DNA of 64,000 nt from Tuwongella immobilis (lineage in GTDB: Bacteria > Planctomycetota > Planctomycetia > Gemmatales > Gemmataceae): NCBI RefSeq assembly GCF_901538355.1, contig NZ_LR593887.1, forward strand, positions 1,774,920-1,838,919, given 5' to 3'. Below, piece after piece: positions 54,412 to 58,505 of this stretch. The notes below the pieces were generated by a model. It was not told the origin of the DNA, did not search any database, and saw only the letters and a program-made list of their open reading frames with translations. Position numbers and translations under genes: made by a program. Position 1 is the stretch's first letter, and each line of letters begins with the position of its first letter.

Positions 54412-54618
54412 CCCTTCTGCCCACGATTCGATCGCCGATCGGAAATTACCCGCCGGATTCGCTCGCTCGCAACCCGCGACCGCGAGCGGACTTCCGGCGT
54501 GTGTCCATTCCTGATCACCCACGATTTTTCGTCTTCCAGTGGTGAAATCTTGACTACTACCCATGCGATCGAGTAAAGTAATTGAAACGATTGTGCGGGA
54601 GAGGTGAAGGAACATCAC
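54412..54618. promoter_or_regulatory. Gap before the JAMM-E2-E1 operon, likely promoter region
   Basis: 207 bases of non-coding sequence between the LOG gene and the JAMM peptidase gene. The inverted pair gatcggaaa / cgatcg around 54425-54445 is weak. I could not identify a confident -35/-10 pair, but transcription of the operon must begin here or within the LOG gene. Confidence 0.3.
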
Positions 54619-55680
54619 GTGGCAGGTTCCGGGAATCGCTGGCCAAATATTCGGGCATGGATGGATGCCATCGTGCGCGGTTGGCACCGACTTCGTTCCA
54701 ACGAGCGAAATCGGCCGCTTCCGCCGGAGCCAATGCTCACCTCAGCGGACTCCGCGCCGGCTCCACCTGCCGAGATCGCGCCCGCTTCTGCCGATGCCAA
54801 AGGCGATTCCCGTCCGAAATCGTCTGAACTTCGGCGGTTAACCCGGGTGGAACTCACGTTCCAAGTCGTTGATTTGCTGTTTCGCGAGTATCAATCGCAT
54901 CGGGAAAGTCGTCGCGGCAACGAGGAACTTGGCTGGCTGCTGCTCGGCGAGCGCGGCGAGGATTGGGCGCGGGTCACCGCAACACTCCCCGCCGGTGAGT
55001 ACCGCGAGGCCAGTGCCGTGCATATTCGCATGAACGCAGATGGGCAGGTGCTGGGGCATCGGATTCTGTCCCAATCGGTCCCGAATCTGACGCTCCTGGG
55101 CATCGCACACACCCATCCCGGCAGTTTGCGGGTGCCCAGCGGCGGTGACTATGCTGGGGATTCCGTTTGGGTGCGTCGGCTGGTTGGTCAAGAAGGAATT
55201 TTCGCCATCGGCACCGCAGATGGGAAATCCGATCCGCGACCAGACGAATTCCCAGATGGGGATGCCGAACGACCGGGCGATGCCGACATTCGCTGGCACT
55301 GGTACAAATTGGCTCACGGCGATGCCCACTATTCGGATCTCCCCATCACGATTGTCGATGGGAATGATGCCGCCGCGCATCTCCGACCCGTTTGGCCCAT
55401 TATCGAACGCTATGCCGTCCGTTTGGATCGGCTCGCTCGGCAACTATCCCGAGTGCGATTTGAAATTCCCGAAATCGATGAATCTTCGGAGCAGACGCCG
55501 CTTTTGAAAGTGGAGGTCACACTCCCGGAGCGAAATTCGTATCTTTGGGTCGTGATGGATGGCCAAAACATCCAATATTTTTGGGTCCGAGATGGGAAGA
55601 TTCTGCAGCCCAATCTCGAAGAACCCGCCCCCGATTGTGGGGTGTACCGTATGCTCGCGGAACTGGCGAACCGACCCTGA
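54619..55680 (+). CDS. JAMM/JAB (MPN) isopeptidase-like protein
   Basis: 353 residues, first gene of the operon. The N-terminal ~70 residues are Pro/Ala-rich. The JAMM domain (about 75-235) has a complete zinc signature: E102 in EELGWLLLG, then HTHP with H164 and H166, S174 and D177 (HxH-x7-SxxD). It should therefore be an active metallo-isopeptidase that removes or matures a ubiquitin-like modifier. A C-terminal ~110-residue beta-rich domain of unknown type follows. The start (GTG with AAGGA eight bases upstream) is preferred; another GTG lies five codons earlier. With the E2- and E1-like genes downstream it fits a deconjugating role, as BilD or Cap3 in other systems. Confidence 0.88.
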   Translation: MAGSGNRWPNIRAWMDAIVRGWHRLRSNERNRPLPPEPMLTSADSAPAPPAEIAPASADAKGDSRPKSSELRRLTRVELTFQVVDLLFREYQSHRESRRGNEELGWLLLGERGEDWARVTATLPAGEYREASAVHIRMNADGQVLGHRILSQSVPNLTLLGIAHTHPGSLRVPSGGDYAGDSVWVRRLVGQEGIFAIGTADGKSDPRPDEFPDGDAERPGDADIRWHWYKLAHGDAHYSDLPITIVDGNDAAAHLRPVWPIIERYAVRLDRLARQLSRVRFEIPEIDESSEQTPLLKVEVTLPERNSYLWVVMDGQNIQYFWVRDGKILQPNLEEPAPDCGVYRMLAELANRP

Positions 55681-55743
55681 ACCGCGATCATCGTTTGCGT
55701 GTCGAGATTAGGACTCCCACACGGAATTTTCGGAGAAACCGTC

Positions 55744-55926
55744 ATGGATTTTCGACCCCTCAACGATACCGAACGGGAACGACTGATGACCGCACTGCGC
55801 GGCAATGCCGAAAAGGGCCAAGCCGTTCTCGTCGATCCCAAGGACACCAGCTTCGCTGGCACCAGCGATGAAGTCCCCGAAGATGACGTCATCAACGCCA
55901 TCCGCTCCGTTCCCAGCCACTACTGA
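55744..55926 (+). CDS. Unknown 60-residue protein of the JAMM-E2-E1 operon
   Basis: A small acidic protein with GGAG eight bases before its ATG, between the JAMM and E2 genes. It begins MDFRPLNDTERERLMTALRG and ends SVPSHY. I do not see a beta-grasp pattern or the terminal Gly-Gly of a ubiquitin-like modifier; the sequence looks mostly helical at the N-terminus and loop-rich later. It could be an atypical modifier, a substrate, or an adaptor for the E2. A 117-base gap without a ribosome site for other frames separates it from the E2 gene. Confidence 0.7.
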   Translation: MDFRPLNDTERERLMTALRGNAEKGQAVLVDPKDTSFAGTSDEVPEDDVINAIRSVPSHY

Positions 55927-56043
55927 TCCGTCGGCGAATCGCTGTCGGAAGGCTTGCATCGCTCTGGTCAATGTTTCGATCGCCGAATCATTGACCAGAT
56001 GCGGTCCATTCATCGATTGATTGGCACCCCGCGAGGACTCCCC

Positions 56044-56472
56044 ATGTCGTTGCTGACCAGCGAAGAGGGCAAGCGACGATTGCTGACCGTCGAACTCCCG
56101 GCAATCGAACGCTATAACGAAGGCCGTGATGAATCGTTCCGAATCGTGTTGGCGAAGCAACGCGACGGTAGCCTTGCGCTCCGCTATCGGCTCAAGCCGG
56201 CCCACAATGTCTACGAGTTGGAGACGATTCTCCCCGCGACCTATCCGAGTACACCACCGGAGACCCGGGTGGTCAGCAAACTCAAGCCCTGTCCGCATCT
56301 CCTTTCGCAGCAACGACTTTGCCTTTGGAAGCAAGGTTCCACACGGGCCGCCAGTCGCTGGGATGCGTCAAAATTCACCAGCGTGTTTGCCGTTCAAGCG
56401 GCCTGGCGATGGTTAGCGTGCTACGAAGTGTGGTACAGTAGCGGAACTTGGCCCTTGCCCGAAGCGATTTGA
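56044..56472 (+). CDS. E2-like ubiquitin-conjugating enzyme
   Basis: 142 residues with the UBC fold of bacterial E2-like proteins. Seen features: an N-terminal helix (EEGKRRLLTVELPAIERYNE), the strand series, YPSTPPETR (equivalent to the YPxxPP of E2s) and CPHLLSQQRLCLW, in which C93 corresponds to the thioester Cys and the PH pair to the HPN motif. A C-terminal helix with Trp-rich AWRWL follows. The Cys83/H85/C93 arrangement resembles the E2 of bacterial conjugation and CBASS systems. The start has GAGG eight bases upstream; an upstream ATG 30 codons earlier has weak support. The E1-like gene begins 26 bases downstream. Confidence 0.85.
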   Translation: MSLLTSEEGKRRLLTVELPAIERYNEGRDESFRIVLAKQRDGSLALRYRLKPAHNVYELETILPATYPSTPPETRVVSKLKPCPHLLSQQRLCLWKQGSTRAASRWDASKFTSVFAVQAAWRWLACYEVWYSSGTWPLPEAI

Positions 56473-56498
56473 ACTTCCCCTATGTTGAGATTCGCATC

Positions 56499-57320
56499 AT
56501 GGCGCATTTGTTTCAGGTTGGGGCCGGTTCGGGCGGCATGGTCGTTCTCGATTTGCTCTGCCGCGATCCGCGGATCACCACCATCACGCTCGTCGAACCT
56601 GACATCTACAAACCGCACAATGCGGCCCGACATTATTTTCCCGCTTCCGCTGCGGGGCAGTTGAAGGTCGATCTCGTCACCCCCTGGATTCGCGATCGAC
56701 GGCCAGATATTCATCTGCAGATTCTGCCAACCGATTTGCTCGATCCGCAACATCAAGCCACCTATCAAGATGCGATCGCAGCGTGTGATTTGGGCATCTG
56801 TGCGGTCGATGTCGAACCCGCGAAATATCGCTTCGATGCGCTGTTCCGACAAGCCGGGAAGCCCTGGACGATGGGCGAGGTGCTTTCGGGTGGCATCGGC
56901 GGGTGGGTGCATCGCTTTTCGCCGGGCCAAGCCTGCTACGGCTGTGTGGCGAGCCACCTGCAACGCAACGTGCGTGAAGATGCCAGCCCGCCGCCGGATT
57001 ATTCCAATCCCGATGCCGTGATTGCGGAAACCACGATCCCTGCAAGTGTTGCGTCGATTCACTCCATCGCCAGCTTGCACGCCAATGTCTCATCGCAATT
57101 GCTTCCGGATGGCGGTGATGCAGGTGATGATTGGACCAGTATTTTGTTGACGCTCCAATCGGTTCCGAATGTCTTTCGGGAAGCCTATCGGACCTATCGA
57201 TTTTCGATTGCTCGTCGAGCCGATTGTTTGATTTGCGGTGAGTCGCAAACCAATACGCTGTCGGGAGATGCGCTTGATTCGGCATTGGATGCCGCGCTCA
57301 ATCGATTGGGGGCGGACTAA
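56499..57320 (+). CDS. E1-like (ThiF/MoeB family) adenylyltransferase
   Basis: 273 residues. The ATP-binding Rossmann start is VGAGSGGM (G8-G13), followed by LVEPDIYKPHNAARH, with the Asp, Asn and Arg typical of E1/ThiF enzymes. A treble-clef-type zinc pair is present: C146 and C149 (CYGC) with C243 and C246 (CLICG). It should activate the C-terminus of a small protein as an acyl-adenylate. It is a minimal E1 without an added rhodanese or UFD domain; the E1 thioester Cys is not obvious. The reading frame extends upstream into the E2 gene but the ATG used opens the Rossmann fold. It is separated by three bases from the following gene. Confidence 0.88.
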   Translation: MAHLFQVGAGSGGMVVLDLLCRDPRITTITLVEPDIYKPHNAARHYFPASAAGQLKVDLVTPWIRDRRPDIHLQILPTDLLDPQHQATYQDAIAACDLGICAVDVEPAKYRFDALFRQAGKPWTMGEVLSGGIGGWVHRFSPGQACYGCVASHLQRNVREDASPPPDYSNPDAVIAETTIPASVASIHSIASLHANVSSQLLPDGGDAGDDWTSILLTLQSVPNVFREAYRTYRFSIARRADCLICGESQTNTLSGDALDSALDAALNRLGAD

Positions 57321-57323
57321 TCC

Positions 57324-58505
57324 ATGGCATACGATCCGAACGAGTCGAGGAGTGTCCCTCGTGACCCCTTCCATCGCAGTTATGAGAAGGGTGGTTTGAT
57401 TCTGCAGAATTCGCAAATTCCCTGGAATGCCGAGGCGGTCCAGATTGAGACGCTGCTGAATTTGCCAGCGAATGCGCGAAATCGCAGCGATTATCGGTTG
57501 GAATTTCCCGGATTCGAGCCAATTGTCGCGGAGAGTCTCACCGCTCAACCGAACGGAAATTTCCATCGGTTGAACTTTCGGATTCCGTTTTGTCCGCCCC
57601 GATCGTTGGTGGGGCAGATGTGCTGGGGCGAAATGACGCTCGCACCCGTGTCATTAGATATCCTCACCGAGGCGGAGTGTGCCCGTGGGGTGTCGCTGGC
57701 GTTGCCGACGATTTATGTGCAACTCGGCAATCGTGTCGTTGCAGCGCAAACGGTTGTGGCATCGCAACTTCGGCAACTTTCGGTCGCGGCCGTATTGCGA
57801 TCGTCATTCGTGCAATTGGCGGCTCTCGGCGAATCGTCGCTGGCCGTGGAGCTGGTCAATCAAGTGGGTGAGGTGGCGGAGCGTGTGCCGGTGACCTTGT
57901 CGGCTTCGCAGCGGCGGACCCGCGAAGCCCTGATTCACGCGATTTTTCGCCGCAAGCCGTCCGGAACCGGGGATTGGCAAGTGCGGTGGGTGCTCGGCGA
58001 GCGCATTCTCGATTCGCTGCGGCTGCAAACAGTGACTCGCACCACGTTCGAGCGATCGTTGCGCGTGAGCGATACCCGATTTGTGTTGTGCAACGGGGAC
58101 GACGTTCGATTGGAGCGTGAGGTGCAAAATCGCACCGCCCAGCGAATCGGCCCATGCTTTGTGGTTAGTTCCGAACTCGCTGGAGTGGCAGGATTTGCGA
58201 CGCTGCGCGTTCAGGCACAGGTCCATGGAACGCATCAGCCGCCGGTGATGGATTCCAGCGAACTGCTCATCACCGATGGCCGCACCGTGTTTGCACCTGG
58301 CACCTGCGATGCGGCGGATTTTGCTCAGATTCTCGCGTTTGAATTGGTGTTGGGGCGACGAGTGGTCGGAACCTTGCCGGTCTCGCCGTTCCGTGAGGCG
58401 CGTTTCAACTCCGAAGGCGGCTTCACGGCCCCGCCGAATTTCCGGTGGAATGCCACGGCTCAGTCGGCCTTGGACGAGCGACTGAACCGATTGCTTGATA
58501 ATTAG
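57324..58505 (+). CDS. Unknown 393-residue beta-rich protein of the JAMM-E2-E1 operon
   Basis: Family not recognised. Its ATG follows the E1 stop by three bases, so it belongs to the operon. The sequence has a regular alternation of hydrophobic strands (for example LRLQTVTRTTFERSLRVSD, RFVLCNGDDVRLE) that suggests several Ig-like or beta-grasp-like domains. There is no signal peptide, membrane segment, nucleotide motif or terminal Gly-Gly. It could be the substrate, a binding protein for the modifier, or a protein holding an embedded ubiquitin-like domain. Confidence 0.75.
   Translation: MAYDPNESRSVPRDPFHRSYEKGGLILQNSQIPWNAEAVQIETLLNLPANARNRSDYRLEFPGFEPIVAESLTAQPNGNFHRLNFRIPFCPPRSLVGQMCWGEMTLAPVSLDILTEAECARGVSLALPTIYVQLGNRVVAAQTVVASQLRQLSVAAVLRSSFVQLAALGESSLAVELVNQVGEVAERVPVTLSASQRRTREALIHAIFRRKPSGTGDWQVRWVLGERILDSLRLQTVTRTTFERSLRVSDTRFVLCNGDDVRLEREVQNRTAQRIGPCFVVSSELAGVAGFATLRVQAQVHGTHQPPVMDSSELLITDGRTVFAPGTCDAADFAQILAFELVLGRRVVGTLPVSPFREARFNSEGGFTAPPNFRWNATAQSALDERLNRLLDN

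Follow-up and report, generated by a model that had tools for sequence, protein, structure and literature searches.

The operon and its five genes

The 64,000-nucleotide window of Tuwongella immobilis analysed here (contig NZ_LR593887.1, positions 1,774,920 to 1,838,919) contains, flanked by housekeeping genes, an operon that encodes a JAMM isopeptidase-like protein, a 60-residue protein (p60), an E2-like conjugating enzyme, an E1-like adenylating enzyme and a 393-residue protein, termed here beta or the immunoglobulin-like (Ig-like) protein (Table 1). An initial annotation of this DNA, made from its sequence alone, had described these genes as a ubiquitin-like conjugation operon without a recognisable modifier, perhaps for defence. 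All five open reading frames (ORFs) indeed lie on the + strand between 54661 and 58505, re-measurement returned the same intergenic gaps of 63, 117, 26 and 3 bases, and the active-site residues named for JAMM, E2 and E1 are present in the ORFs and conserved across orthologues. That part of the earlier interpretation, an E1-E2-JAMM type gene set with conserved active sites, is retained in what follows; the absence of a modifier and the role in defence are not.

We begin the JAMM ORF at the ATG at 54661. GTG codons at 54604 and 54619 are alternative starts, and the JAMM numbering of the initial annotation, which used an upstream GTG, runs 14 residues ahead of the numbering from the ATG. Pfam recognises Prok-JAB (1.5e-7) and ThiF (4e-11) among the cassette proteins and, in a search of the window proteins, no family for p60 or for the 393-residue protein, for which the initial annotation had likewise known no match. 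PADLOC models for JAB, E2 (8.6e-9) and E1-E2 (1.2e-16) match the cassette.

Table 1. Genes of the conjugation operon, in window coordinates
Feature	Coordinates	Strand	Basis
JAMM/JAB isopeptidase-like protein, 339 residues; accessory gene	54661..55680	+	Pfam Prok-JAB, metal motif
p60, 60 residues, ends SVPSHY; candidate modifier	55744..55926	+	E2 adjacency, co-occurrence, conservation, predicted fold
E2-like conjugating enzyme, catalytic Cys93 (RLCLW), His85	56044..56472	+	PADLOC E2, invariant residues
E1-like ThiF-family adenylating enzyme, 273 residues, GAGSGG, zinc cysteines	56499..57320	+	Pfam ThiF, profile matches
Beta (Ig-like) protein, 393 residues, three predicted Ig-like beta-sandwich domains, EGGF...W, C-terminal helix	57324..58505	+	Model, co-occurrence

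Conserved active sites in E2, E1 and JAMM

The E2 possesses the catalytic cysteine of a ubiquitin-type cascade: Cys93, like His85, is invariant in 67 sequences, two distant outgroups included. Models of bacterial defence E2s fit the protein better than eukaryotic UBC does, and derivation from a eukaryote is unsupported (Pfam UQ_con, E 0.2, versus the PADLOC bacterial E2 value given above). Elsewhere in the same genome (L117 5268-7858; C1 about 614,270-616,860) lies a short locus of the type found in the cyclic-oligonucleotide-based anti-phage signalling system (CBASS): a CD-NTase (cGAS/DncV-like nucleotidyltransferase) gene, then a gene for an E2-like paralogue that shares about 33% identity with the E2 of the operon, then one for a patatin phospholipase.

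The nucleotide site of the E1, GAGSGG, is nearly invariant, the GxGSGG pattern and neighbouring motif residues being conserved, and the protein matches the profiles of UBA5 (2e-9), MccB (1e-7) and MoeB (3.5e-7). The two CxxC pairs of its zinc site (C146/C149/C243/C246) are invariant in the orthologues and in both outgroups and are its sole universally conserved cysteines; Cys101, which lies by the nucleotide motif, is conserved in 55 of 57 sequences and absent from the outgroups. The E1 thus has no domain comparable to the catalytic cysteine domain of Bil-type E1 enzymes, and because it has no conserved transfer cysteine, direct transfer from the adenylate to E2 would be the probable route.

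The metal site of JAMM (E88, H150, H152, S160 and D163 in ATG numbering) is invariant in 31 orthologues and conforms to the motif E...HxHx7SxxD. The gene itself is accessory: it is missing throughout one genus (g16), and has been lost, apparently more than once, while p60, E2, E1 and the Ig-like protein remain, in the g16 genomes and at loci L085, L088, L092-L094, L098, L100, L103, L105 and L107. Two further JAMM frames contain, as called, an in-frame internal stop (L101 6709-7713, from Zavarzinella formosa, and G038:C145:12563-13486), which may reflect misjudged starts or ends, sequencing error or decay.

A conserved cassette in the Gemmatales

A scan of 84,980 species, each represented by one genome, yielded 64 loci beyond the window. 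Their titles are nearly all planctomycete, and for the few others (Bacteroidales, Kuenenia) an error of binning or naming is probable. Among 43 other genomes from the order, 31 encode an E2 orthologue with 58-71% identity; no E2 match was found in 15 sampled genomes from other orders of the same class. The p60 gene stands directly upstream of the E2 gene in all 64 loci, even where E1, beta or JAMM lies elsewhere; these three mostly adjoin the p60-E2 pair too, and in most relatives the beta gene overlaps the end of the E1 gene by 4-44 bases. Most genes around the cassette are not shared among relatives; an M50-like peptidase gene, found in 11 loci, is one of a few exceptions, and the cassette is therefore the conserved unit.

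Among 61 Gemmatales genomes, p60, E2, a strong E1 match and beta are all found in the same 46, in single copy, and a 47th genome contains a beta fragment alone. JAMM is present in 28 of the 46 cassette-bearing genomes and in none of the 15 cassette-less ones. Since the first four genes track together whereas JAMM follows in only 28 genomes, we regard p60-E2-E1-beta as the core and JAMM as an accessory.

This distribution bears on the earlier suggestion of a defence function. A system of phage defence resembling CBASS or Bil, in which the Ig-like protein or p60 would act as the sensor or the effector, would fit the nearness of the E1, E2 and JAB proteins to defence-database models, the CBASS-type locus with a related E2 in the same genome, and a distant operon (L139, described below) in which E1, E2, JAMM and a 60-residue ORF adjoin an HNH/NTPase-like gene (NTPase, nucleoside triphosphatase). 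The cassette, however, contains no CD-NTase, nuclease, phospholipase or TIR gene, and a dedicated defence role is unlikely because the genes are spread in single copy over about three-quarters of the sampled order, are apparently inherited vertically, are flanked by housekeeping genes in the window and have no match in a plasmid collection searched with p60 and E2. We consider this explanation highly improbable, and the cassette is apparently ordinary cell equipment rather than dedicated or mobile defence.

Properties of p60 and of the Ig-like protein

Identity between p60 orthologues is 73, 84 and 44% at codon positions 1, 2 and 3, and the median ratio of nonsynonymous to synonymous substitution rates is 0.21; this pattern identifies p60 as a real gene rather than a chance ORF. 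Its invariant residues (M1, D2, R4, R11, R19, T35, F37, V49, A52, S55, V56, P57, H59 and Y60) include the motif SVPxHY, SVPCHY in most relatives, which closes the protein and is followed by nothing or by a short tail; the C-termini of E1 and beta, by comparison, vary. As no lysine is conserved, p60 does not look like a lysine acceptor. The AlphaFold2 model (mean predicted local distance difference test score, pLDDT, 84; predicted template-modelling score 0.50) consists of a helix (8-23), a beta hairpin (strands 27-30 and 37-41), a second helix (46-55) and a short C-terminal tail, and is not a beta-grasp fold. No chain in the PDB matched it at Z 5 or more, which is not proof of a new fold; by sequence, PDB gave chance-level matches only, and Pfam nothing above chance across 60 members.

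Exactly HY ends p60 in 53 of 65 sequences, and the remaining 12 bear a tail (A, G, GR, AG, AGI, AGV, KL or AVVSGQ). The window p60 itself ends without glycine, and, as previously noted, no window protein ends in Gly-Gly; glycine-containing tails are limited to relatives. Divergent Gemmatales clades end in HYAG, HYAGI, HYAGV, HYG, HYGR or HYKL, and most tailed members fall outside the 48-member group containing the window in a tree of E1 and E2, which was built by a quick method and has long outgroup branches and some open forks. In the tailed species that could be checked, a p60 tail is accompanied by JAMM; the tails cluster on the tree, so these species are not independent evidence.

The Ig-like protein is predicted, at pLDDT 91, to form three beta-sandwich domains and a C-terminal helix, upstream of which lies a conserved EGGF...W stretch. 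Its best structural matches are tandem Ig-like chains of macroglobulins, complement and filamin (Z about 9, with large root-mean-square deviation), matches that speak to the arrangement of the modelled domains and not to a function. Coupled as it is to E1, the protein may be a scaffold, a target adaptor or an acceptor.

Ubiquitin-like proteins (Ubls) were also sought elsewhere. A beta-grasp Ubl hidden in the beta protein is discounted by the model of three Ig-like domains, and one hidden in JAMM as a required modifier by the absence of JAMM from 18 of the 46 genomes that have the system. YukD-type Ubls, as a modifier encoded elsewhere, occur in 0 of 61 genomes; ThiS-family beta-grasp proteins occur in all 61, with or without the cassette, and hence do not track the system.

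Distant homologues of p60

When 392 planctomycete genomes were searched with E1 and E2 profiles, adjacent E1/E2 pairs outside the Gemmatales were found in a few of them. One such genome, G136 (L137), has the gene order JAMM, 65-residue protein, E2, E1, 474-residue protein, and its 65-residue protein ends in HYAGR, which may be compared with the HYAG and HYAGI ends of Gemmatales loci L108 and L114. Among 965 ORFs this protein is the best match to the p60 profile, yet at E 0.24; 0 of 2000 shuffles score as well against p60, and hhalign aligns the two over their full length at E 2.3e-6. The 474-residue protein matches beta weakly (E 0.014) and is beta-like chiefly by position. In a second genome, G187 (L138), a 74-residue protein encoded 4 bases upstream of E2 ends in RHGG. 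Pairwise comparison with the G136 protein gives p 0.001, and the G187 protein is probably a p60 homologue. Glycine at or near the C-terminus of p60 homologues is what would be expected of a modifier.

A proposed pathway and its alternatives

These observations are best accommodated, in our view, if the operon specifies a Gemmatales ubiquitin-type conjugation pathway in which p60, a protein of non-ubiquitin fold, is the modifier, a reading towards which the evidence tips modestly. E1 would use ATP to adenylate the C-terminal carboxylate of p60, which would then pass to Cys93 of E2, probably straight from the adenylate; E2, for which the Ig-like protein may serve as scaffold or target adaptor, would join p60 to a nucleophilic group of a target in the cell; and JAMM, where present, would remove p60 and perhaps trim the short C-terminal tails of some species. 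The pathway would be inherited as ordinary cell equipment. That p60 is what is transferred, and in which direction, is our inference, as are all the covalent bonds, the part played by the Ig-like protein and what the pathway is for. The joint presence or absence of p60, E2, E1 and beta in 61 genomes supports the proposal, as does the order JAMM-p60-E2-E1-(beta) kept in G136 with a p60 homologue ending in HYAGR. Since p60 never parts from E2, and since distant homologues of p60 have the ends -HYAGR and probably -RHGG, we take it as a strong candidate for the modifier, and the best one; the earlier statement that no modifier is recognisable is correct as to a Gly-Gly end and is modified as to p60. 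A more specific version, in which a core, non-defence pathway attaches a 60-residue, non-ubiquitin-fold tag through a C-terminal tyrosine by means of an E1 that has no transfer cysteine and hands the adenylate to E2, is possible but doubtful.

Precedents exist for two features of this scheme. MccB carries out an E1-like adenylation of the C-terminus of a peptide that is not a Ubl. In CBASS, related enzymes conjugate cGAS, a modifier that is not of the beta-grasp type (PMC10097602).

Several points nevertheless weigh against a role for p60 as modifier. The window p60 and about 80% of its relatives end in tyrosine rather than glycine, and in CBASS no conjugation took place once Ser, Val, Arg or Trp stood in place of the C-terminal glycine (PMC10097602). 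Tail sequences differ, with more than one loss or change, so that the identity of the last residue seems unconstrained unless p60 is cut back to HY by JAMM. The G187 protein ending in RHGG is weakly similar to p60 itself (hhalign E 0.021). Finally, the closest tie of p60 is with E2, and its N-terminal MDFRPL is conserved to the same degree as the C-terminus, features that also suit a non-covalent partner of E2. Either E1 accepts tyrosine, or p60 of the window clade has turned into such a partner.

The alternative that follows is that p60 is an obligate non-covalent partner of E2, whether cofactor, regulator or E3-like adaptor, and that some other protein, unlinked or not recognised, is the true modifier. 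The adjacency of p60, stricter to E2 than to E1, the equal conservation of its two ends and the rarity of a C-terminal glycine all suit this explanation, and the ThiS-family proteins, present in all 61 genomes, could in principle be used. The AGR and probable GG ends of the distant homologues are harder to reconcile with it, as are the absence of YukD-type Ubls from the 61 genomes and the failure of the ThiS-family proteins to follow the cassette, and we regard it as unlikely. It is also conceivable that p60 is not a protein tag and that E1 and E2 modify its C-terminus to make a cofactor or signal from it, with p60 as the peptide precursor, in the way that MccB acts on MccA. The alignment of E1 to MccB over most of the profile, the short invariant motif SVPxHY and the housekeeping-like distribution are compatible with such a product; the cassette, however, holds no other tailoring enzyme, p60 is conserved over its whole length and predicted to fold, and neither a JAMM protein nor an E2 whose cysteine is conserved would be expected there on general grounds, which makes this explanation improbable.

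Relation to known systems

The initial annotation had set the gene set apart from Bil and CBASS, and the operon indeed contains no CD-NTase, Cap2 fusion or double-Ubl BilA. It shares with type II CBASS (Cap2/Cap3) related E1, E2 and JAB families and the principle of a non-beta-grasp modifier, there a cGAS/CD-NTase protein, conjugated by its C-terminus (PMC10097602). It differs in that E1 and E2 are separate proteins rather than a Cap2 fusion, no effector is present, the candidate modifier has 60 residues and mostly lacks a terminal Gly or Ala, and the distribution is that of an order-wide core system. With Bil (BilABCD) it shares the four-part logic of modifier, E2, JAMM and E1. BilA carries a pair of ubiquitin-like domains, and BilD a catalytic cysteine domain of approximately 80 residues (PMC11354881), whereas here p60 is predicted not to be a beta-grasp protein, the E1 has no cysteine domain and an Ig-like partner is added; family searches and the models of p60 and beta recognised no beta-grasp protein in the cassette. 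Operon type 6d of Iyer et al. (2006) likewise places a small protein beside JAB, E1, E2 and one extra, helical protein, but that small protein is a predicted beta-grasp Ubl with a conserved C-terminal glycine, the E2 of that type is without the classical histidine, and the operons are patchily distributed; the paper names neither a planctomycete nor Gemmata (PMC1779556).

The E1-like fold of MccB, from the microcin C7 pathway, matches the operon's E1, but that pathway makes an antibiotic and has neither E2 nor JAMM. Pup and UBact are, like p60, small non-beta-grasp bacterial proteins, and serve as tags; they are ligated by a PafA-type enzyme and not by a ThiF-type E1 with E2, the genes for which the operon carries, and p60 has no family match. 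We found no description of the gene set in the literature searched, which did not extend to the majority of subscription papers, among them Arcas et al. (2013), whose title reports E2s in planctomycetes and which may cover the present E2. The kind of system is already known, since CBASS shows related enzymes conjugating a non-beta-grasp protein. If the proposed pathway is correct, the chemistry of E1, E2 and JAMM needs no beta-grasp fold even where the tag is small and dedicated, and such a pathway is part of routine cell biology throughout an order of the planctomycetes, a group whose cell architecture is unusual. The loss of the terminal glycine from a conjugation system would then also call for an explanation. 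The set is compact and testable (p60, E2, E1, the Ig-like protein and an optional JAMM), and the cultured species Zavarzinella formosa (L101) and Limnoglobus roseus (L091) carry p60, E2 and JAMM on the sampled loci.

Other E2 loci

Three further loci encode E2 proteins in other settings. At L139 (5539-11452), a 60-residue ORF ending in YYIEG precedes genes for E2, a second E2-like protein, E1 and JAMM, and the operon adjoins a gene for a 953-residue protein with an HNH-like start and an NTPase-like region; it looks like a separate, defence-like conjugation operon. Homology of its 60-residue protein, which occupies the same slot as p60 and ends in IEG, to p60 was not demonstrable. The N-terminally extended E2 proteins of L140 and L141 were considered as fusions to a p60-like domain, and their similarity to p60 is not above that of shuffled sequences. 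In both loci (L140 5804-8350 and L141 2115-4643) the E2 gene and a JAB-E1 fusion gene come directly after cas2, with a reverse-transcriptase-like gene also present in L140 and a RAMP-like gene in L141, and the E2/JAB-E1 pair is thus CRISPR-linked.

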